From assembly GCF_039851975.1 (NCBI RefSeq), contig NZ_CP156660.1, positions 3,539,035 to 3,603,034 on the forward strand: a stretch of DNA of 64,000 nt. The letters are read 5' to 3'. Positions 11,944 to 41,020 of this stretch are shown here, piece by piece (the stretch's first letter is position 1; every line of letters starts with the position of its first letter). The notes below the pieces were generated by a model, which was not told the origin of the DNA, did no database searches, and was given only the letters and a program-made list of their open reading frames with translations. The stretch comes from Desulfoscipio sp. XC116. Lineage in GTDB: Bacteria > Bacillota > Desulfotomaculia > Desulfotomaculales > Desulfallaceae. Position numbers and translations under genes: made by a program.

Positions 11944-11976
11944 AAAAAAAGCGCACCACGTAAGTCAGGTGCACTT
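11944..11976 (-). terminator. Riboswitch-associated terminator of the thi operon
   Basis: On the minus strand GTGCACC pairs with GGTGCGC and runs into a T7 stretch. It lies between the TPP aptamer and thiS, as expected for the expression platform that stops transcription when TPP is bound. Confidence 0.85.
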
Positions 11977-12071
11977 TTTCCACAATACCTTTCCTACGCG
12001 GGCATTACCCCGATCAGGTTCATGGGTCAGGTACTCAAAAGCCCTTTCTCAGCCCATAACATGAGCTCCCC
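11977..12071 (-). promoter_or_regulatory. TPP riboswitch aptamer (THI element)
   Basis: Read on the minus strand, the conserved THI-box elements occur in order: CTGAGA, then ACCTGATC with GGGTAATGCC and GCG-AGGAA. The P1-forming GGGGAGC begins the aptamer at 12071. It controls thiS, thiG, thiH, thiF and thiE downstream, via the terminator at 11944-11976. Confidence 0.95.
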
Positions 12072-12090
12072 AAATTTTTTATTAAATTTC

Positions 12091-31365: not shown

Positions 31366-32343
31366 TTATTTGGATTCCATATTAGCCCTGATTTTTTGAT
31401 AAACCGATTGCCCCGTTTGGTAATCCCCCAGGGCTATTAAGGCCTGGGCCGATGCCATATCGTTGGGCAGCCGCTCCGAGCCGTGACTAAACGAACCATC
31501 CGCCAGACGGTATTGCAAAAGCCCGGTTACCGCGTTACCCCCGTCCTTGCTCCATTCGTCAGCCGTCGGATCAATACCCAAAATAGTCAAAGCTTGCACC
31601 ACCTGGGCACAGGATTCCGCTGTTGAAGTACCCCAGGCGCCGAAGGTGCCGTCTTCATTTTGTTGTTCCTTTAGATAAGCCAGCGCTTTTTGCACCGGCA
31701 AAAAGCCGCTGTCCTTGTCCAGGCAGGCCATAGCTATAATGGCCATGGCCGTCATATCCACATCCGATTCGTCCAGCCGAATATCGACGCTGAAGCCGCC
31801 GTCGGCGTTCTGATGCGCCGTCAGCCACCGCAGCGCCAGATCGGCCCGGGGAATATCCTGCCCCGCAACATAGAGCGATATAATACCCCAAATGTGAGCG
31901 TTAACTAACTTTTCCCCGGTTCCGTTTATTGTATCGGCGAATTTGCCCGACAGAGTTTGGGAAGAGATAATACTTTGCAGCAGGTTTTTACCCCCGTAAC
32001 CGTCGGGGCTTTTCCCAGCCGCCGCCGCGCCCAGTACGGTCCGCTGATAATCGGTGCTCTTGGCTTCCGAGAGCATTACCCCTTGAGCAAGCTGCGTTTC
32101 CCGTAATTTTGACAGATGCCCGGCATCTTTTCCAATGCCGTAGTAACCCAGCATGGCCCATTCCAGCATACCATCGTACCCCGGGGCTTGCAGCTCCTTA
32201 TCCAGATAGCTTACCGCACCTTTAACGGCTTCCCGCACCTCCGGGCTGCCGGGCGTTACGGACGCCCAAGCAACCGGCGCCAAGGCCAACATAAAGACCA
32301 GCACTCCCACAACCGCCAAAGTCTTTCTAAATTGATTAAACAA
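31366..32343 (-). CDS. Secreted alpha/alpha-barrel protein (prenyltransferase-like repeats; transcobalamin N-domain type)
   Basis: A 325-residue protein with a signal peptide (about 1-27, ending AWAS) and repeated helical hairpins with the GG-F-type turns of the squalene cyclase/prenyltransferase repeat family (QNADGGFS, NEDGTFGAWG, LADGSFSHGS). It closely parallels the N-terminal domain of the SLH protein encoded at 37009-40704; both share LADGSFSH followed by an NDxAxxQAL(I/M)AL helix. In animal transcobalamin the same fold forms the B12-binding alpha domain. TTG start with GGAGG seven bases upstream. Last gene of the B12-riboswitch operon. Confidence 0.8.
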   Translation of the reverse strand: MFNQFRKTLAVVGVLVFMLALAPVAWASVTPGSPEVREAVKGAVSYLDKELQAPGYDGMLEWAMLGYYGIGKDAGHLSKLRETQLAQGVMLSEAKSTDYQRTVLGAAAAGKSPDGYGGKNLLQSIISSQTLSGKFADTINGTGEKLVNAHIWGIISLYVAGQDIPRADLALRWLTAHQNADGGFSVDIRLDESDVDMTAMAIIAMACLDKDSGFLPVQKALAYLKEQQNEDGTFGAWGTSTAESCAQVVQALTILGIDPTADEWSKDGGNAVTGLLQYRLADGSFSHGSERLPNDMASAQALIALGDYQTGQSVYQKIRANMESK

Positions 32344-32378
32344 TGGAACCCCTCCTTAGCTAATTAGTTTTAACAACG

Positions 32379-33137
32379 TTAATCCCGGACCCCAGCCTGG
32401 AATTCCCGCGTCTTTTGGCCCTCTCCCTCTATGGCATGCACCTCAATTGTTTTAACCGTTAACCGGTTTCCGAACCGCTGTAAAACTTTAATCATTTCCA
32501 GACCCATGAAATACATAAACAGCCCGTTACCCGCCGCATGCAGCGTATCGAAAAGGAAACCGGCGGCATAAGTAGCCGCAAAGGTTGGCCAGGTTAGCGG
32601 GTAAATATAAGTTAGCCAGTGCCAAGTATTCATTATGAGACCGTACAGGTAACCCCAGGCCAGGGCAAAGGCCACTAAAGTAAAACGGGAATTGCTTTTA
32701 TGCACCCGGGCCAGTACGCCCGACGTTAAACCCACCAGCCCCCAGGCCACCATTTGCCAGGGGACCCACGGTCCCATGCCCATAAAGAAATTGGAGATTA
32801 AAGCCGCCAACGCCCCCACGGCGAACCCGGCCCCGGGGCCCAGCACATAACCCGAAATGATAACCAGAAAGGTAGTGGGCTGCACGTTTGGTATGGCGGC
32901 AAAGGGCAACCGGCCCAGTGCGGCCAGGGCGGCCATGGTGGCTAACAGGGCTATTTCACCCGCCGACGGAGCGCTGCTTTCAAACTTAAGGAAAAAACCG
33001 AGCAACCCCAGTAGCGCCATACCCAGGGACAATATCGACCAGTTTAAATTCATATCCGGGTTGGCTTTGATATCAAAAAATAAAAACAGTAAAAATCCGG
33101 TTAATAGAAAGCCAAAGAATAATTTACCCCACTTCAT
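32379..33137 (-). CDS. ECF transporter S component (probable cobalamin type)
   Basis: A 252-residue membrane protein with seven or so hydrophobic segments. The core matches ECF substrate-binding (S) components: an ALLATMAALAALGRLPFAAI opening, PTTFLVIISGYVLGPGAGF, and GMGPWVPWQMVAWGLVGL. The first helix pair is an N-terminal addition. It overlaps the ATPase gene by 14 bases. Cobalamin as substrate is inferred from the riboswitch and the DUF4430/barrel proteins; the S component itself is not diagnostic. Confidence 0.82.
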   Translation of the reverse strand: MKWGKLFFGFLLTGFLLFLFFDIKANPDMNLNWSILSLGMALLGLLGFFLKFESSAPSAGEIALLATMAALAALGRLPFAAIPNVQPTTFLVIISGYVLGPGAGFAVGALAALISNFFMGMGPWVPWQMVAWGLVGLTSGVLARVHKSNSRFTLVAFALAWGYLYGLIMNTWHWLTYIYPLTWPTFAATYAAGFLFDTLHAAGNGLFMYFMGLEMIKVLQRFGNRLTVKTIEVHAIEGEGQKTREFQAGVRD

Positions 33138-34836
33138 AATGACACCACTTCAGCACATCCAGCGCATCCTGGAATGTAATTACCCCATTGCAAAAACCCC
33201 TGAACATTTTATTCAGCTGCGGCGCGTAATAAAGGGAATTATTCATCACTAAACGTTTGTCCCCGTCGGCCACTATTTCACCGCTAAACATAATCATTAC
33301 CCGGCGGGCATATTCGGCTACAAATTCGATATCGTGGGTAATGATGATTATAGCCACACCATCGGCAGCAAATTCAAGCAGGAGGTCCCCCATTTCATTT
33401 TTTAAATGAGCGTCCAGGCCCCGGGTAGGTTCATCCAGCAGCAGCACCCGCGGCTTGCGGACCAAGACTGTGGCCAGCGCTACCCTCTGCCGCTCCCCCC
33501 CGCTCAGATCGCGCGGGTTCATATCTTTAACATTAGTTAAGCGGAGTTTGGCCAGTATTTGATCTACAGATTCATTTGCCGCACTATCGCCCGGTTCCAG
33601 TCCAAAGGCCACCTCATGGCGAACGGTATCGTGGAATAGATAGTCGTTGGGGTTCTGGGAGAGATAACCTACGCTGCCGGCAAGTTCGTGGACTTTTTGT
33701 TGGTTAATGTCCCGACCCAGAAGTTTGACTCTACCTCGCTGCGGGCGCAGTAAACCGCATATGTTTTTTAGCAGGGTAGTTTTACCACCTCCGTTTTCAC
33801 CGATTATGGCCGCTACTTCACCGGCGCCGACGGTTAATGATACATTGCGCACGACGGGTTGCAAGGCGTCCGGATATGTATAGGAAAGGTTTTTAACTTC
33901 CAGGAGAGCTTCCCGGGATACAGCGGCTTTGTTAGCTTTCTCACATCCCCCGGGGTATCCGCAAGTACCCGGAGCCGGCAGCATGGCGCAGAGCTGCTTG
34001 CGGCCCTGTGCAACGGTGAGGGGGATTTTTTTACTGCCCGCCTTAGCGAAAAAGCGGGGCAGCGGCGGTATAAAGGGGCTGTTGGCATTTAAGCCGTAGA
34101 TAACGGCATCATCCGGCCGGCTGTTGTTTAACAGGCAGCCCCCGTTCATAATCAGCACCCGGTCTGCCAGGTGAAAGCATCTTTCCAGCCGCTGTTCCAC
34201 CAGTACCACGGTTAAACCCAAATCTTCATTCATTCTTTTTACATTGGCAAGCAGTTCTTCCGCCGCCACAGGGTCCAATTGGGAAGTGGGTTCGTCCAAA
34301 AGCAGGACTCTGGGTTGCATGGCCATTACCGAGGCCAGCAGAACTATTTGCTTTTGTCCGCCGGATAGATCAAAGGTGTTGGCGGATTTCAGCGCAGAGA
34401 TATTTAGATAGTCCATTACTTCAGCAATACGGCGCTTTATTTCCCGGGCCGGAAGACCTATATTTTCCAGGCCAAAGGCTATTTCCCGTTCGACTCCGGT
34501 CATCACGAGCTGATTTTCCGGATCTTGAAAAATGAACCCTATTTCCCCGGATAATTTACGCTGATCCCAATTCCGGATATCTTTGGGGACATGCCTCGAA
34601 GAGGTGTGTCCCTTTTCCAGGTTACCCCGATAGCGGACTTTGCCGCCAATGGAGCCTCCGTAGAAGTTCGGCACCAGTCCGGAAAGCGCCCGCAGCAGTG
34701 TGGATTTGCCGCATCCGGAGCCTCCTGCGAGCAGAACAAATTCTCCTTCGTTAATTTCCAGGTTAACCCCGCAAAGGGCGGGTCTTTCCGAGCCCCCGTA
34801 ATAATAGGTTAGAGCTTCCACCTCAAATAAGGCCAA
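33124..34836 (-). CDS. ECF transporter double ATPase (EcfA-EcfA' fusion)
   Basis: A 570-residue protein with two ABC ATPase domains in tandem, energising the ECF transporter. The first has GGSGCGKST and LSGGQKQ, the second GENGGGKTT and LSGGERQ, each with a LLLDEPT Walker B. I chose TTG 34836, eight bases after GGGGG; it overlaps EcfT by 28 bases. The stretch coding GHTSSRHVP (34586-34612) is a palindromic element that reads in frame, in the loop before the Q-loop of the first ATPase. Confidence 0.88.
   Translation of the reverse strand: MALFEVEALTYYYGGSERPALCGVNLEINEGEFVLLAGGSGCGKSTLLRALSGLVPNFYGGSIGGKVRYRGNLEKGHTSSRHVPKDIRNWDQRKLSGEIGFIFQDPENQLVMTGVEREIAFGLENIGLPAREIKRRIAEVMDYLNISALKSANTFDLSGGQKQIVLLASVMAMQPRVLLLDEPTSQLDPVAAEELLANVKRMNEDLGLTVVLVEQRLERCFHLADRVLIMNGGCLLNNSRPDDAVIYGLNANSPFIPPLPRFFAKAGSKKIPLTVAQGRKQLCAMLPAPGTCGYPGGCEKANKAAVSREALLEVKNLSYTYPDALQPVVRNVSLTVGAGEVAAIIGENGGGKTTLLKNICGLLRPQRGRVKLLGRDINQQKVHELAGSVGYLSQNPNDYLFHDTVRHEVAFGLEPGDSAANESVDQILAKLRLTNVKDMNPRDLSGGERQRVALATVLVRKPRVLLLDEPTRGLDAHLKNEMGDLLLEFAADGVAIIIITHDIEFVAEYARRVMIMFSGEIVADGDKRLVMNNSLYYAPQLNKMFRGFCNGVITFQDALDVLKWCHYEVG
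34586..34612. repeat. Palindromic repeat inside the ECF ATPase gene
   Basis: GGGACA-TG-CCTC-GAA-GAGG-TG-TGTCCC forms a tight hairpin within coding sequence. The same design, GGGGACA-nn-CCTC-n5-GAGG-nn-TGTCCCC, occurs at 57627-57657, so it is a dispersed repeat that has landed in frame. Confidence 0.6.
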
Positions 34837-35729
34837 TATTTCCACCCCCAATTTAAGAATGCGGGCAATGCTGCGGTAATGAGAAGACAGGCTAGCGTCA
34901 GTAGCTGCCGGGGTGATACAAATAAGACGCCGAGCTGCGGGTAAAACCGGTATTGAGCCCACCCGGGGACTAATAATGCCACACCCAGTAATAATAACGC
35001 CAGGCTGGACGATAAAATAATCATGTCCCGAACCTGCATTCTTTCCCCGCTATAGTGGCTTCGGGGGCCGCTGCCATATGCTCTGCTTTGTATTGCCTCG
35101 GCAATGCCCAAGGCATTTTCCAACGAAGTTAATGTTATAACCTTTAATAGCGGATAGTAGCTATTGATTTTTTGGATCAGACCGGTCTGATCGAAGGCTA
35201 CTCCCCTGGTTTGCTGTACTTCTTTAATATTTTTAAGCCGGACTGCCAGATAAGGTATTAATCTGGTAGTCAGCGCTACTAGCATAGCCGTTCTCGGGGC
35301 CAGGCGGGCAAATAGTTCAAAAGCCCGGTCGGGATTTATGGTTTGGTTATATAAGAAGAAGATAGTTATGACTACTAATAGGCGCAGGCCCATATCAAAA
35401 CCGTATAGAAGGGCTTCCAGGGTAACGGCAATCCGTCCCATTACCGGTATATCGGGTAAAGTGAGCAGTACGGTGCTGCCCAGCCGGTTAAATAATGGGT
35501 TAATTAATATAATCATGATCAGCAGTATGATAAGAAACGGAACAAAGGTTTTGTATGCCGCAAAAGCGTCTACTAGTTTAATGTTTATTAATAACACGGC
35601 GTACAGGGCTATCAGCAGCACCGGATGATTGCAGGCCAGCGCAAGGAAAAGCAGGACTCCCGCGTAGACAATTATCGTCAGCGGATGGAAGGACTGCAAA
35701 AAAAGTTTTTTATCCCGGTAGATATACAT
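34809..35729 (-). CDS. ecfT: ECF transporter T component
   Basis: A 306-residue membrane protein with a hydrophobic N-terminal half, and the EcfT coupling helices with Ala-Arg-Gly-like motifs: QTRGVAFDQ (about residues 168-176) and IQSRAYGSG (about 210-218), which contact the two ATPases. It lies upstream of and overlaps the double ATPase gene, and is followed by the S component, giving a complete transporter in one operon. Confidence 0.9.
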   Translation of the reverse strand: MYIYRDKKLFLQSFHPLTIIVYAGVLLFLALACNHPVLLIALYAVLLINIKLVDAFAAYKTFVPFLIILLIMIILINPLFNRLGSTVLLTLPDIPVMGRIAVTLEALLYGFDMGLRLLVVITIFFLYNQTINPDRAFELFARLAPRTAMLVALTTRLIPYLAVRLKNIKEVQQTRGVAFDQTGLIQKINSYYPLLKVITLTSLENALGIAEAIQSRAYGSGPRSHYSGERMQVRDMIILSSSLALLLLGVALLVPGWAQYRFYPQLGVLFVSPRQLLTLACLLITAALPAFLNWGWKYWPYLRWKL

Positions 35730-35749
35730 AGTTTACAATCACCCTTTAA

Positions 35750-36919
35750 TTAGTTGACGACGGGTACGGGGAGTACCTTTTCGCCACTGACTACGGCACC
35801 GAAATACTGTTTAAAGGAGCCGGGGCTGGAGATAAGGAGGTTTACGGCCCGGTCCAATCCCGGCTGGTCCAAGCCGGTAACCAACCATACCGGGGTGGGG
35901 TCCCCCATGCCGGAACCGGTGGCTGTTATTGCGCCGACGTTTTGGTGATACCGGCTAACGATCTCGCCTTTCATATCCAGGGTGGCGAAGTAATCCGGGG
36001 CAAGTTCAATAAATAAACCGGTTTTTTTGCGCTGCTTTTGTACCCCTTGCCAGAATTGTTCGCCGGCAAAGCTTTTCCACAAGCCGATTACCAATGTAAT
36101 TTTTTCGCTTTTGGTTACTGTTTTTTCGTTGTAGGGTTGTACGGTTACGTTTTTAGCCCCCAAATTACGCAGGTGCTCGGCCAATTGATGGCCTTGCCGT
36201 TCACAGCCCGGGGCCGTCAGTACCGCCGTGCCGGGGTTTTGGCCGCGGTAGCCGCTGATAAAAGGTTCGGGGAAGGCGCCTATTAAGGCCGGTGTAAATA
36301 CTGCCCCGCCCCAGTCGTGATAATCCCACCAGATAACGTCACCGGGTGCGGGCTTGTAATCCAGCGCTCCCGTCGAAGTGATAATGCCGTTTGCGTAATA
36401 AAACCAATCCCTGGTCTTTTTGTCCGAGCCTGTGTAACCCGATCTGAGACCGTTGATAGCTTCCACAAAACCGCCACCGTATTGTGTATTTACATCCAAG
36501 TTGTTTTTTAAGATATCCATTACCGAGTCTCCCGGCTTAAGGGCAACTCTATCGTTGTACAGCGGGCTTTTAGCGTAATCCCGGGTAACCCACAAGCTAA
36601 CTTCGGATGCCGGTGAAGCCGAGTTTTTTCCCGCTCCGCCGGTGCCGGCGGGGGCTTCTTTTTGCCCGCTTCCCTTGTCGGCGCGGGGAGCCGGTTGGGC
36701 CGGACCGGGTTCTTCGCCGGGTTGTTCCGCGCCGGCGGTCGCTTCTTCAGAGGGCCGAGTGCCGGTATCCGCGTTTTGGGTTTGCTCTTTGTCCTGTTTA
36801 AGAGCTAATTGGCCCGGCTCCGTATCGGTATTGCCGTCCGGAGCGGATGAGCCGCCGCCGCACCCGGCGGCGCAAATCAGCACTATCAATAATGAGATGA
36901 CCATGCCCCAACGTTTCAT
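35750..36919 (-). CDS. DUF4430-domain lipoprotein (transcobalamin C-domain type)
   Basis: A 389-residue lipoprotein: signal peptide with lipobox LICAAGC (Cys20), a long Pro/Gly/Glu-rich linker (about 25-100), then a DUF4430-like domain (about 105-200; GDSVMDILKN, then WFYYANG and PGDVIWWDYHDWG) and a further C-terminal domain (about 215-389) of unknown type. DUF4430 resembles the beta domain of transcobalamin that clamps B12. The ATG at 36919 has GGGAGG nine bases upstream. Anchored in the membrane, it could pass cobalamin to the ECF transporter encoded immediately downstream. Confidence 0.8.
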   Translation of the reverse strand: MKRWGMVISLLIVLICAAGCGGGSSAPDGNTDTEPGQLALKQDKEQTQNADTGTRPSEEATAGAEQPGEEPGPAQPAPRADKGSGQKEAPAGTGGAGKNSASPASEVSLWVTRDYAKSPLYNDRVALKPGDSVMDILKNNLDVNTQYGGGFVEAINGLRSGYTGSDKKTRDWFYYANGIITSTGALDYKPAPGDVIWWDYHDWGGAVFTPALIGAFPEPFISGYRGQNPGTAVLTAPGCERQGHQLAEHLRNLGAKNVTVQPYNEKTVTKSEKITLVIGLWKSFAGEQFWQGVQKQRKKTGLFIELAPDYFATLDMKGEIVSRYHQNVGAITATGSGMGDPTPVWLVTGLDQPGLDRAVNLLISSPGSFKQYFGAVVSGEKVLPVPVVN

Positions 36920-37008
36920 TTGCATAAGCCTCCCTGCAACAAACGGGTATTTAAGCGATTAGATAGTTTTTATATAATTATTTAGTCTTCACAATAACTT
37001 ATAACAGA

Positions 37009-40000
37009 CTAGTTTAATGAAAGAATACGGTAAACCAATACAGCGCTCTGGGCCCGATCGGTAAGCATATCCGGTTTAAATGAGCCATCGGGAAATCCTT
37101 TAAGCAATCCGCTTGCCGCTGCGGCTGCCACACTATCCCGAGCCCAGGCGCCTACCTTATCCCGATCGGAAAATTCCAGTTCCGCCGCTACAGGCTCTAA
37201 ATCCAGGGCTCTGGTAAGTATGGCCGCAATTTGTTCTCTGGTAATCTGCTCGTCGGTACGAATGGTGCCATCGTCATAGCCTCTTACCAGTCCGGCTGTA
37301 TATGCGGCCTGTAATATGTCGTAGTGCGGGGTATCCGGCTCCAGATCGGTAAAAATCTGATTGCCGCCGGGCGGTGCTTCAATGCCCATGGCTTTAGCCA
37401 GCATAACTATAAATTCACCTCTGGTTACCGGTCGGGCCGGTTCGAAATTACCTTCACCGGTATCGGATAGTATCCCTTTTAGTGCCAGATATTGTATTTC
37501 CTTTTGGGCCCAGTCGTAGGAGCCATTGCCTACATCGGGAAAGGAAACCGGCTGTTTTTCCCTGGCCAATACCGCAAAATTGGTAAAGTGGGTAATCAGA
37601 CCGGAGATTTCCTCGTTGGCGGGGTCGACTACCGACGGTACAGGTACCCAGCGGTCATTGGCCGCGTCATACCAGGCAATGACCAGATTTTCTGGCGTGC
37701 CCTCATATCCGGCTATTTTAATGCGCAGGGTTACCGGATTATCGAAGGTAAGCCCGTCAGGCCCGAGTTCATACACCGAAGACACCTGGCGATGAGTATC
37801 CGGGATCGTTGAGTCAGGCCCGCTCAACTCGTAAATTTCTACGGTCACCCGGCTGTTTATGGACCCGCCGGGCAGACTCAGGTATACCTCCTGCAATAAG
37901 TCCGTTAGCGTATTATCGCTGTCCGGGTCGACTGGCTGCGAAACTTGCACCTTGTTTTCCTGCAGTATCTCCATCCATTTTTCCCGTTCTTCCAAGGTCA
38001 TGGGATAATCCGTGGGTACAACAACCGGGTTGCATTCGGCCAGTTCAATCCGGTGGAACAGCTCTTCTTGCTTGGGTGCCGATTCGGGTAAAAGTTGTGC
38101 CAGGTTGCCCATTTCTTCCGCCACTCGTTCTCTGGCCTGCTTGACCGCTTGTGCCCGTTCGGCCGGTACCGGAGGAATTTCCTTAGCAAGTTCACCGGAC
38201 GAAACACTTCCGTTGCCGGGATCATTGGGATCTTGGGCCCAATACCATTCCACCTCGTCCCCGTTCTCCAATTCGTAATCTTTTCCGGAAATTGATTCAG
38301 GCGCCGCTCCGTTTACTTTATACTTCCACCCGGCGGTACTGCCGGAATCCTCTGCAATACCGTCTATACTGTACACGTAGCTATCATTATACCTGGTGCC
38401 CACTCTAAGAGACGTTTGTTTTAAAGCATAGATGGGATTTCGATCCTCGCTGCCGGCAATTTGAACCGTTCCGGAATAAAGCAGTTCCCGGTCTTTACCC
38501 CGTACAAGGAGGATGACGGTAATAGAGTCGTCTTCGCCGCCCTCGCCGCCTTGGGCTTTAACATTCAATGCCAGCTCACCTGGTACAATCTGGGGATAGC
38601 CCGGCTGGTCGTACTTTTCCGCCCGGATATTAAGAGGTCCCTCGACAGCCGTAAAGCTCACAGGTTGGCCTGATGATACTATTTGTTCTTGACCGTTGAT
38701 GATTAATTTAATATCGTTTACTTGTTGTTCAGTCAGACCGGTAAGCCAATCATATTTTTTTACTGTAATTGTAACGGTCGCGCTTTGTCCGTCTTTGGGT
38801 GATTGGGGCTGTAAACCAATCAGCGTGAGATAAGTCTTGTCACTATAGGTGCCGGTATCGTAAGCGCCCAGATAAAATATGACTTCATCTCCCGCGGCTA
38901 CATTATAGCTGCCGGCCCCGGTACCCGGGGAAGATGATTCTATGTCTCCGTTCCTTAAGACGTAGTATTTCCAGGACAGAGCAGTGTCTTCGGCAAAGCC
39001 TGGGTTTTCGCTTTCACCCAGGATGGAGGTGATATATCCCCCCGGAGCGGCTACGTTTGCTTTACCGACCAGCGCCCCAAGCGCGTCCAGCGCCGTTCCG
39101 CCTACTTCCACTGTACCGGAGGCCAGTTGGCCCGCCGCGCCTTCCACCCGGACCTTGACCTGTTTGTTGAGTGCCTCTCCAACGGTGATCTGTCTGCTGC
39201 TCCTAACCAGTTCCGGATAGCCGTCCGGGTGCTGTTTATATACTTTTAAGGTAAATGTACCCGCTGCGGTTAAAGGTATCTGTGTTTGTCCGAAAGAGGT
39301 TTCATATGTTTCGCCGTTAAAATCTACGGTGACCGGGTCCAGCAGTGTGGTGGTAAAATCATTCTCCCCCCAGTCAAAGCTTGTGCCGCTTACATTTACG
39401 ATAAGGGTTTGACCTGCTGTCGGGTTGGCGGGGGTGATGTTTATTACAGGGATAAAGGTTTTATTACTCCAGTCAGCGGCAGCGTAGGCTCCGATGTAAA
39501 AAACCACCTCATCCCCGGGAGCAACATTGTATCCTCCGGGTCCGGTGCTCACGGCAGACGCATCCAGCTCACCGTTCCTTACAATGTAGTAAAGCCAGGA
39601 GGTAGTTGTATTACCGTCCGAACCGGAATCCCCTCTCTCAGTAAGAATAGTGGATATCATACCGTTGGAATCCAGCAGTACATTTGCATTGCCAACCAGT
39701 ATTTTCAAGGCGTCCAGCGCAGTTCCATCCAGTTCCACTTCACCGGAGGCCAGGGTATTTCGCAGACCTTCCACTCGTACTTTAATTTTACTTGTTCCGG
39801 GATTTTCGCCGCCGCTACCGCCGCCGACCACCACGAATGAGCCGTAGGATTCTTTTAAATCGGCCAGAGCCATTAACGCCTGGCGAGTGGCTATGTCGTT
39901 GCTGCGGCCACCGGGAAGGTGGGAAAAGGAGCCGTCGGCCAGCCGGAAATTAAACATAGCGTTAATGATATTGTTATCGCCTTTATTCCAGGTGGTAATG

Positions 40001-40704
40001 TCTTCACCGCAGGCCAATAGGCCTTGGATGACGGATGCTATACTTTCCGTGTTCTCGCTGCCGAAGGAGGCAAAGCCGCCGGAATCAAGCTGTACGGCAC
40101 GCAGATAATCCAGCGCCCCGTATACCGAACCATACACACTGGCATTCACAGTATGTTCGGCTAGAGCCATCATGGTCAGGCCGGTGGTGTCGGGGTCACC
40201 GGACGAGCCGCTGATGGAAAAACCACCGTCGTTTTTTTGCTGATTGACTAGATAATTTAACGCGTCTGAAACTCGATAACTGCCGCCCGCCCTGTCCAAG
40301 GCCAGAATGGCATAGGCAGTGTTATTAATCGAGTCGCCGAAGCTGCCGTTGGATTTTTGTTTGGCAGCCAGTTGCTCCACCAGGTTAATATTGTTGCCGT
40401 CCCGGTCGATGTAATTTTGCGGGTCTTGTCCGGCGGCCCCCAGCGCTAAAATGGTTGATGCATAGTTTAAAGCAGAGCCGTCCGGATCAGCCTGCCACGC
40501 GGAGAGATCGAACCGGTCAATTGCCCCCGCCCGGCCCAGGCCGACTATCTCTTCCCAGTAATCCGGCTGCGGTTTGTTTACTTCGTAATATTCCACCAGT
40601 GCATCCAGGGCATCCGATACTGTCTCCGCCGACGCCGGAGCAGCAGCCGTTCCCAGTAAACAAAACATCATGAGCAAAATAGTTGTCATAATTTTTTTAA
40701 TCAT
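37009..40704 (-). CDS. SLH-anchored surface protein with alpha/alpha barrel and three DUF4430 domains
   Basis: A 1,231-residue secreted protein. Order: signal peptide (1-26, ASA), alpha/alpha barrel with prenyltransferase-type repeats (about 30-290), three DUF4430-like domains (about 306-408, 516-615 and 728-823, each with a GTALDAL-type helix, a W-x-YY(I/V)-x-(R)NG strand and a PGDEV or AGDEV turn), an extra beta domain with a ZU5-like region (about 930-1045), and three SLH repeats (about 1050-1231) that bind the cell wall polymer. Barrel plus DUF4430 is the layout of transcobalamin and intrinsic factor. First gene after the cobalamin riboswitch; ATG 40704 has AAGGTGG upstream. Confidence 0.88.
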   Translation of the reverse strand: MIKKIMTTILLMMFCLLGTAAAPASAETVSDALDALVEYYEVNKPQPDYWEEIVGLGRAGAIDRFDLSAWQADPDGSALNYASTILALGAAGQDPQNYIDRDGNNINLVEQLAAKQKSNGSFGDSINNTAYAILALDRAGGSYRVSDALNYLVNQQKNDGGFSISGSSGDPDTTGLTMMALAEHTVNASVYGSVYGALDYLRAVQLDSGGFASFGSENTESIASVIQGLLACGEDITTWNKGDNNIINAMFNFRLADGSFSHLPGGRSNDIATRQALMALADLKESYGSFVVVGGGSGGENPGTSKIKVRVEGLRNTLASGEVELDGTALDALKILVGNANVLLDSNGMISTILTERGDSGSDGNTTTSWLYYIVRNGELDASAVSTGPGGYNVAPGDEVVFYIGAYAAADWSNKTFIPVINITPANPTAGQTLIVNVSGTSFDWGENDFTTTLLDPVTVDFNGETYETSFGQTQIPLTAAGTFTLKVYKQHPDGYPELVRSSRQITVGEALNKQVKVRVEGAAGQLASGTVEVGGTALDALGALVGKANVAAPGGYITSILGESENPGFAEDTALSWKYYVLRNGDIESSSPGTGAGSYNVAAGDEVIFYLGAYDTGTYSDKTYLTLIGLQPQSPKDGQSATVTITVKKYDWLTGLTEQQVNDIKLIINGQEQIVSSGQPVSFTAVEGPLNIRAEKYDQPGYPQIVPGELALNVKAQGGEGGEDDSITVILLVRGKDRELLYSGTVQIAGSEDRNPIYALKQTSLRVGTRYNDSYVYSIDGIAEDSGSTAGWKYKVNGAAPESISGKDYELENGDEVEWYWAQDPNDPGNGSVSSGELAKEIPPVPAERAQAVKQARERVAEEMGNLAQLLPESAPKQEELFHRIELAECNPVVVPTDYPMTLEEREKWMEILQENKVQVSQPVDPDSDNTLTDLLQEVYLSLPGGSINSRVTVEIYELSGPDSTIPDTHRQVSSVYELGPDGLTFDNPVTLRIKIAGYEGTPENLVIAWYDAANDRWVPVPSVVDPANEEISGLITHFTNFAVLAREKQPVSFPDVGNGSYDWAQKEIQYLALKGILSDTGEGNFEPARPVTRGEFIVMLAKAMGIEAPPGGNQIFTDLEPDTPHYDILQAAYTAGLVRGYDDGTIRTDEQITREQIAAILTRALDLEPVAAELEFSDRDKVGAWARDSVAAAAASGLLKGFPDGSFKPDMLTDRAQSAVLVYRILSLN

Positions 40705-40796
40705 TGTAACCCACCTTTTATTTTTTACGGTTATCAAGGCTATAACAATTGCTGACAACTGCCGGCGCACAGGTTGAGCATTGAATTTGGCAGCTG

Positions 40797-40833
40797 AATA
40801 AAAACGTAGACCGGCTTATCGATAAGCCGGTCT
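40797..40833 (-). terminator. Terminator of the cobalamin riboswitch
   Basis: A perfect 26-base palindrome (40808-40833, arms AGACCGGCTTATC) is followed on the minus strand by ACGTTTTTATT. It stands between the aptamer and the first gene and is the probable off-switch. Confidence 0.88.
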
Positions 40834-40842
40834 GCAGTGGAA

Positions 40843-41003
40843 TACCCCCAAATAGGCAACCCTTACCTGGAAGGCTTTACCGTATTAAACATTTGGGGCA
40901 GGTTCCTGACTTTCCGGTTAACTAAGAGATTAACCGGTCACAGTGGCCGGACCGTCCAGGATTTGCACCCGGTTCCCTGAAACACACCCAATGCGCTTTA
41001 TTT
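40843..41003 (-). promoter_or_regulatory. Cobalamin (B12) riboswitch aptamer
   Basis: On the minus strand the conserved B12-element parts occur in order: AGGGAA-CCGGTG-like start with GGGTGCAAATCC, then the B12 box GCCACTGTGACC, then GTCAGG-ACCTGCC. It controls the operon of SLH protein, DUF4430 lipoprotein, ECF transporter and barrel protein, and ties that operon to cobalamin. Confidence 0.93.
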
Positions 41004-41020
41004 AGCTTGTTAATTTTTAC

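Follow-up and report, generated by a model that had tools for sequence, protein, structure and literature searches.

We analysed a 64,000-nucleotide stretch of the genome of Desulfoscipio sp. XC116 (contig NZ_CP156660.1, positions 3,539,035 to 3,603,034; hereafter the window), on the reverse strand of which a cobalamin riboswitch precedes six genes. We read these, with a probability of roughly 0.78, as a corrinoid uptake operon in which a riboswitch-controlled energy-coupling factor (ECF) transporter of the CbrT type would be served by an extracytoplasmic, two-module clamp resembling transcobalamin; this reading rests on sequence comparison and predicted structures. The grouping of a CbrT-like S component with alpha/alpha barrels and DUF4430 domains recurs far beyond chance, the set is widespread, and in some bacteria CbrT and the barrel form one reading frame. 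The features of the window, numbered from its first letter, are as follows.

31366-41006, reverse strand: predicted riboswitch-led corrinoid uptake operon, a cobalamin riboswitch plus six tightly packed genes
40880-41006, reverse strand: cobalamin riboswitch aptamer RF00174, short version (Rfam 53.5 bits, gathering score 31.5)
40808-40833, reverse strand: terminator-like hairpin with a T tail between the aptamer and the first gene (pattern scan, 11 pairs)
37009-40704, reverse strand: secreted S-layer-anchored protein with an alpha/alpha barrel, three DUF4430 and three SLH domains (start ATG 40704, signal peptide by inspection)
39832-40620, reverse strand: alpha/alpha barrel of the SLH protein, transcobalamin alpha-domain-like (own profile; predicted structure)
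39478-39789, reverse strand: DUF4430 domain 1 of the SLH protein, transcobalamin beta-domain-like (Pfam PF14478; own profile; predicted structure)
38854-39162, reverse strand: DUF4430 domain 2 of the SLH protein (Pfam PF14478; own profile)
38224-38520, reverse strand: DUF4430 domain 3 of the SLH protein (Pfam PF14478; own profile)
37012-37551, reverse strand: three SLH domains, S-layer or cell-wall anchor (Pfam PF00395, E 3e-34, three stretches; own profile)
35750-36925, reverse strand: lipoprotein, lipobox ...LICAAGC, with one DUF4430 domain and a C-terminal domain (PF14478, E 1.4e-17; lipobox by eye and by pattern)
36305-36604, reverse strand: DUF4430 domain of the lipoprotein (Pfam; own profile)
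35753-36250, reverse strand: unnamed domain at the C-terminal end of the lipoprotein (aligned across 17 chosen relatives)
34809-35729, reverse strand: EcfT, CbiQ family (Pfam PF02361, E 1.1e-13)
33124-34845, reverse strand: fused EcfA1-EcfA2 ATPases (two ABC_tran stretches; TIGR04520, TIGR04521; start GTG 34845)
32379-33137, reverse strand: CbrT-like S component (ECF S component by Pfam; PDB match 6FNP chain A)
31366-32343, reverse strand: secreted lone alpha/alpha barrel without an anchor (PF13243 38.8 bits, PF00432 35.8 bits; Prenyltrans and SQHop_cyclase_C toroid matches)

Downstream of the riboswitch, the genes run in the order SLH protein, DUF4430 lipoprotein, EcfT, fused EcfA1A2, S component and secreted lone barrel; EcfT overlaps EcfA, EcfA overlaps the S component, and 35 bases separate the S component from the lone barrel. 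The original prediction, made from the sequence alone, had placed this gene set under one cobalamin riboswitch, and all of its elements were found with Rfam, Pfam and our own profiles. The ECF transporter proved whole, with EcfT, two EcfA ATPase parts and the S component all matched, and the proposed surface anchoring of the barrel/DUF4430 protein was borne out by SLH domains detected both by Pfam PF00395 and by our own profile. Domain calls follow Pfam's own cut-offs unless stated, and signal peptides were read by eye. Inspection placed the start of the SLH protein at ATG 40704, within a longer open frame (37009-40770), and that of EcfA at GTG 34845, within the frame 33124-34962; scored whole, the fused EcfA reached 373 bits with TIGR04520 (cut-off 315) and 364 bits with TIGR04521 (cut-off 330). 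The toroid of the SLH protein, which is 31% identical to the lone barrel, fell under the Pfam cut-offs (18.1 against 26.1 and 17.9 against 26.5 bits) and was recovered by our own profiles and the predicted structure.

To follow the set beyond the window, we used 57 CbrT loci obtained by a search with the S component (49 distinct S sequences in 37 clusters at 85% identity, nine Lactobacillaceae loci sharing one S sequence). DUF4430 was present in 47 of them, a barrel likewise in 47, both in 41 and at least one in 53, leaving L026, L034, L049 and L065 with neither. An Rfam scan covered 45 of these loci, leaving out L017 and 11 Lactobacillaceae loci, and detected a cobalamin riboswitch on the operon strand and upstream of the operon in 29; in 11 of the remaining 16, the operon is cut by the contig end at which the locus begins, and the other 5 are from Lactobacillaceae. 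Approached from the other side, DUF4430 occurred in 37 of 119 genomes of the source phylum, its own genome counted, and we took one region of at most 20 kb from each of the 36 others. A CbrT-like S component was found in 31 of these regions (weakly in L109) and a barrel in 31. In the phylum of locus L052, a record named Actinomycetota, DUF4430 was found in 18 of 100 genomes; one region from each of the 17 others yielded a CbrT-like S component in 13 and a barrel in 9.

Controls set these frequencies against the background. All 20 regions around the biotin S component BioY contained neither barrel nor DUF4430. Furthermore, 64 of 81 DUF4430 places, in 29 of the 36 genomes, lay no more than 6 kb downstream of a cobalamin riboswitch on the same strand, compared with 0.39 expected from riboswitch density with rounded genome sizes and with 0 of 21 BioY places, which came from 20 of the 36 genomes and exclude two partial matches in G029. 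These 81 places are domains and, because several sit in one gene, are not independent; three riboswitch matches under the gathering score, all in G085, were excluded from the count. A chance neighbourhood was thus rejected by both the BioY and the riboswitch-density controls.

The arrangement of the genes, with adjacency counted among detected genes only, brings the genes of the putative binding modules close to those of the transporter. A DUF4430 gene without barrel or SLH domains lay immediately upstream of EcfT or of the S component in 32 of the 57 CbrT loci and in 27 of the 36 DUF4430 regions, and a separate barrel gene without DUF4430 adjoined the S component in 24 of the 26 CbrT loci and 8 of the 15 DUF4430 regions having one. 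In 13 of the 57 CbrT loci, the S component and the barrel formed one reading frame; these records are named Solirubrobacteraceae, Thermoleophilaceae or Actinomycetota/Actinobacteria, plus two Bifidobacterium breve. The same fusion was present in one of the 17 regions from the phylum of L052 (L139) and, together with two SLH domains, in one of the 36 regions from the source phylum (L104). In the fused chains that we printed, inspection by eye revealed a hydrophobic stretch with an Ala-x-Ala-like end between the S component and the barrel; the barrel would therefore lie outside the cell, and signal peptidase might cut the chain. Frames of another composition were also encountered: in L103 (10842-13352) and L143 (9933-13385), the EcfA ATPases and the S component form single frames of 837 and 1151 residues. 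CbrT operons are carried, moreover, by three Bifidobacterium breve records labelled as metagenome-assembled genomes (L048, L049 and L053), and these labels look wrong, since the S component of L048 starts almost as that of L052.

We subsequently considered the cargo. S components for other vitamins are also present in the PDB, and none of them was matched by the S component of the window in a phmmer search of all PDB chain sequences at E ≤ 10; the sole match was 6FNP chain A (E 7.1e-14, residues 62-225). This entry is the deposited structure of ECF-CbrT from Lactobacillus delbrueckii, which moves cobalamin and cobinamide in proteoliposomes (PMC5997447). With a CbrT-homologous S component, EcfT and two EcfA parts, the transporter belongs by homology to the ECF-CbrT group, and cobalamin uptake is predicted. 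Because the riboswitch and the CbrT identity of the S component point the same way, the cargo would be B12 or a related corrinoid, in agreement with the original prediction.

Predicted structures were then used to assess the two binding modules. An AlphaFold2 model of the SLH-protein barrel with its first DUF4430 domain (394 residues, 52 sequences, ligand-free) reached a predicted local distance difference test score (pLDDT) of 91.7 and a predicted template modelling score (pTM) of 0.77. When this model was compared with the PDB by Foldseek, the top 14 matches were all transcobalamin, haptocorrin or intrinsic factor, with both domains aligned (E 4.4e-10 to 1.2e-6, template modelling score about 0.4), and VIA-align superposed it on intrinsic factor 3kq4_A with Z 19.9 over 317 residues at a root-mean-square deviation (rmsd) of 7.2 Å. 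A profile of 37 DUF4430 domains from the window and related loci matched haptocorrin best among PDB chains (E 3.5e-5), with transcobalamin II (E 0.063) and intrinsic factor (E 0.33) next, both below significance. These results sustain the earlier equation of barrel and DUF4430 with the alpha and beta domains of transcobalamin and intrinsic factor. The check by structure prediction that it had called for came out in part, in that both domains align to intrinsic factor and their mutual pose is not reproduced. The SLH protein also has the order of those carriers, with alpha/alpha barrel and then DUF4430 in one chain. The modelled DUF4430 domain consists of E287-294, E299-307, H311-319, E324-326 with E332-335, E348-358 and E381-390 (E, strand; H, helix), and thus contains a beta-hairpin inserted after the helix, the defining trait of the transcobalamin-like SLBB clade (PMC1796856); CbiO- and CbiQ-like genes, which mark the operons of that clade, are present as well. 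The alpha domain of rat transcobalamin holds four disulfides (PMC11107200), whereas by inspection the mature lone barrel has two cysteines and the SLH-protein barrel one, which does not correspond to a disulfide-bonded alpha domain. Searched against the PDB, a profile of 42 barrels gave squalene-hopene cyclases, other cyclases, prenyltransferases and complement-type toroids on top, with no transcobalamin-family chain in the best 60 of 100 rows. Judged from the models, the two-domain build is that of transcobalamin, and the barrel alone cannot separate a B12 carrier from a cyclase.

Together, these elements suggest a mechanism. Corrinoid scarcity would lead the riboswitch to permit expression of the operon. 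Corrinoid would first be bound by the DUF4430 (beta) domains, which both the S-layer protein and the membrane lipoprotein carry, and the alpha/alpha barrel (alpha) would then close on it, within the same chain in the SLH protein and across chains in the case of the lone barrel and the lipoprotein, which would act as a split, two-chain transcobalamin. The loaded clamp would sit over CbrT and hand the corrinoid over, and EcfT and EcfA would power import. In carriers of the transcobalamin type, the alpha and beta domains can bind B12 even when isolated; B12 goes to the beta domain first, the alpha domain closing afterwards, and association of the domains requires B12 (PMC11107200). That the lone barrel of the window has no anchor would be understandable if a loaded lipoprotein held it in place, just as a clamp working at the transporter would account for barrels encoded in one frame with CbrT. 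The relay proposed earlier, from S-layer to lipoprotein to ECF transporter, is likewise an inference.

Other explanations give the transporter a different cargo or the surface proteins a different task. Cobalt ECF importers can be placed under cobalamin riboswitches, and EcfT falls in the CbiQ family, annotated as 'Cobalt transport protein', so that an importer of cobalt of the CbiMNQO kind has to be considered. CbiQ and CbiO are used by such importers (PMC2667541). Neither CbiM nor CbiN was seen, however, when the six proteins were compared with Pfam at E ≤ 10 (for the ATPase, within the top 25 of 52 families), which makes cobalt import unlikely, and the S component matches CbrT only; we regard this explanation as extremely improbable. 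A closer relative of our reading would keep the corrinoid and shift the preference from cobalamin to a B12 precursor or another cobamide (cobinamide, non-B12 cobamides). CbrT also carries cobinamide (PMC5997447), a gene for CbiZ, the adenosylcobinamide amidohydrolase, stands between a riboswitch and a DUF4430 gene elsewhere in the genome, and a CbiD of the host makes salvage of foreign corrinoids plausible. The present data do not discriminate among corrinoids, and we hold such a preference to be doubtful, if well worth keeping in view.

The barrels might instead be secreted enzymes of the terpene-cyclase/prenyltransferase or glycosidase type that do not bind B12. Squalene-hopene cyclase is indeed first in the fold matches for the barrel, and the Pfam matches are to cyclase and prenyltransferase families, the three leading ones occurring in 35, 32 and 31 of the 42 barrels at E ≤ 10. 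DXDD is the motif of class II terpene cyclases; it is complete in 3 of the 42 barrels and, by eye, absent from both window barrels, in which its last Asp is lost (40 of 42 barrels retain the middle Asp, and all 42 a Thr two places on). With the motif incomplete, a terpene cyclase was rejected, and the neighbours of the barrels, namely CbrT, DUF4430 and cobalamin riboswitches, further argue for a very low likelihood of an enzymatic role. Alternatively, the operon may encode an ECF importer of B12 while the barrel and DUF4430 proteins only store, concentrate or guard corrinoid at the surface, with no direct hand-over to CbrT. Liposomes containing purified Lactobacillus delbrueckii ECF-CbrT take up B12 (PMC5997447), from which it follows that transport itself can do without a partner, and anchoring by SLH or LPxTG sets one protein apart from the membrane. 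The gene positions described above speak against mere storage: DUF4430 genes without barrel or SLH directly upstream of EcfT or S, separate barrels adjoining S and, in some loci, S and barrel sharing a frame. We consider it unlikely.

Several observations weigh against the uptake clamp that we favour. The ligand-free model does not reproduce the closed alpha-beta sandwich (rmsd 7.2 Å against 3kq4), and squalene-hopene cyclase outscores intrinsic factor both on the window barrel (VIA-align Z 23.2, against 19.9 over both domains) and on the fusion barrel (Z 27.0 against 20.7). The Cobalamin_bind family PF01122 remained under its cut-off for the lone barrel (10.6 against 25 bits), gave no match to the SLH protein at E ≤ 10, and at that threshold matched 4 of the 42 barrels, with a best E of 0.0024. 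In the model of the CbrT-barrel fusion of L052, the parts are confident and their mutual placement is not (pTM 0.58), and its Foldseek and VIA-align rows cover mostly the barrel and hardly probe the S part; the linker resembles an internal signal peptide, by which the fused chain may be cut. Among the 57 CbrT loci, a barrel was not seen in 10 and DUF4430 was not seen in 10, some of them cut by contig ends, and all five scanned Lactobacillaceae loci (L028, L029, L030, L040 and L041) lacked a cobalamin riboswitch. Five of the 36 DUF4430 regions had no CbrT-like S component (L078, L082, L083, L091 and L107; L083 spans the whole of a short contig, and L107 stops where its contig does), and seven of the 36 genomes had no riboswitch upstream of any DUF4430 place (G049, G071, G080, G085, G094, G116 and G136; the places of G049, G094 and G136 are on a short contig or close to where a contig begins). 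L089, L090 and L109 pair DUF4430 with a short S component only. Finally, the host carries CbiD, as do 18 of the 21 genomes searched with the host counted, and may make B12 itself, as one gene suggests rather than proves; in that case, the uptake system would serve salvage.

In L089, L090 and L109, a short DUF4430 frame stands directly before the short S component, and the region contains neither barrel nor EcfT/EcfA. Cobalamin riboswitches were absent from the whole genomes G116 and G080, which carry L089 and L090, and the cargo of these two systems may therefore differ.

The riboswitch of the window is itself of a shortened form. Its aptamer is 127 bases long, with a reduced peripheral region in the alignment to the Rfam model, and its ligand preference may differ from the usual. 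Low-scoring short aptamers of this kind comprise that of the window (53.5 bits) and that of the nearest relative, L010 (1745-1913, 50.5 bits), the other riboswitches of CbrT loci scoring 70-132 bits. The downstream hairpin at 40833-40808 on the reverse strand is present in both the minimum-free-energy and the centroid folds and is a possible expression platform; because 12 terminator-like sites were found in the whole window against 13.5 expected from shuffles, the terminator-like pattern alone proves nothing. A thiamine pyrophosphate (TPP) riboswitch (11974-12082, reverse strand, 68.5 bits) lies in the same window, outside the operon.

The genome of the host is rich in related elements, with 19 cobalamin riboswitches in 4.26 Mb, compared with 0 to 13 matches in each of the 36 other genomes searched. 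Three further unbroken DUF4430 places (C1:629683, 3321279 and 3787229) each lie downstream of a same-strand cobalamin riboswitch, and a fifth place, at 2761267, is a broken fragment. At 3787229, CbiZ lies between the riboswitch and the DUF4430 gene, and this group stands about 11 kb upstream, on the same strand, of a second CbrT operon (3770411-3776066) with barrel, EcfT and EcfA; no riboswitch was found within 8 kb upstream of that operon and no DUF4430 in the stretches taken. Elsewhere (L068, C1:3312000-3330000), two cobalamin riboswitches diverge, one preceding CbiZ and the other a short frame that begins like a signal peptide and is followed by a 1865-residue DUF4430 and SLH frame, possibly another surface corrinoid binder. 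In L070 (6663-8796, reverse strand), CbiZ and a 443-residue DUF4430 frame share one cobalamin riboswitch with no ECF genes adjoining. An S component of this kind was absent from all six other genomes of the genus and present in 7 of 16 of the family, the host counted.

The lipoprotein carries, after its DUF4430 domain, a further part of about 165 residues that aligns with invariant residues in 17 chosen relatives from both phyla and is preceded by the consensus WWDYHDW...PAVVGAFPEPF. For this part, searches with the alignment gave no match of note in Pfam or the PDB, the latter yielding only a pair of weak hits, both to designed proteins (E 0.73 and 1.1). At least 130 residues follow DUF4430 in 20 of the 57 CbrT loci and 13 of the 36 DUF4430 regions, indicating that the domain is not general. 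We propose it as a candidate for the part that docks on the transporter.

The closest precedent is the work of Burroughs et al. (2007), who reported proteins combining a toroid with SLBB domains in Desulfotomaculum and Bacillus, as well as operons that include CbiO and CbiQ, and put forward a role in scavenging B12 (PMC1796856). The original prediction had called the arrangement little described, which was wrong in part, inasmuch as toroid/SLBB operons for B12 scavenging had been proposed there. Common to both accounts are surface proteins that combine a toroid with SLBB (DUF4430), a frequent second SLBB protein and the CbiO/CbiQ genes; the 2007 paper predates the work on CbrT, its main text contains no occurrence of the words riboswitch, S-layer or SLH, and it does not, as far as that text goes, describe the joining of barrel and S component (PMC1796856). 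According to the same paper, key enzymes of B12 synthesis are usually missing from bacteria with such proteins (PMC1796856); the CbiD of the present genome does not fit this. Among open-licence PMC papers, a scope too narrow to establish absence, we found no later work on the bacterial proteins, and none of those naming DUF4430 was, to judge by titles and the opening lines of abstracts, about B12 transport in bacteria. Our analysis adds the CbrT identity, riboswitch statistics with controls, the frames joining S component and barrel, the C-terminal domain of the lipoprotein and the spread of the set, and from these comparisons the 2007 idea gains much stronger genomic support. A conserved transcobalamin-like set beside CbrT, mostly linked to riboswitches, offers a concrete answer to how Gram-positive bacteria may catch B12, and it suggests a function for DUF4430 and for the unnamed domain that accompanies it.

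ECF-CbrT of Lactobacillus delbrueckii shares with the window operon a homologous S component, an ECF module and, by prediction here, the B12/cobinamide cargo; it differs in that several S components share one ECF module and that the purified complex was assayed (PMC5997447), whereas in the window EcfT and the fused EcfA share an operon with barrel and DUF4430 proteins. ECF transporters are described as binding their substrate through the S component (PMC5997447), so that an outside binding protein would change the view of how they work. A role comparable to that proposed here is played by BtuG of Bacteroides, a surface lipoprotein that catches B12 and passes it on (PMC6143338); its partner is BtuB in the outer membrane, and the likeness is one of role, no similarity to BtuG having been specifically sought. 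The BtuB-BtuF counterpart suggested earlier likewise holds for the role only, with no receptor or periplasmic-binding family among the Pfam matches listed. The fold of BtuG is a beta-propeller. Animal transcobalamin, haptocorrin and intrinsic factor have the same alpha/alpha barrel followed by a beta-grasp domain and are the best structural matches over both domains; they are soluble, disulfide-bonded and taken up through receptors, whereas the window proteins are anchored or split between chains, poor in cysteines, placed beside a transporter and below the PF01122 cut-off. The set thus bears on the origin of the animal B12 carriers, for which a Gram-positive source was already proposed in 2007 (PMC1796856). 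We tentatively advance, at somewhat less than even odds, the broader idea that ECF transporters can work with an extracytoplasmic binder, a two-part transcobalamin clamp whose beta part is a lipoprotein and whose barrel is secreted, wall-anchored or made in one chain with CbrT; the animal B12 carriers would in that case be fused, soluble descendants of a bacterial import clamp.

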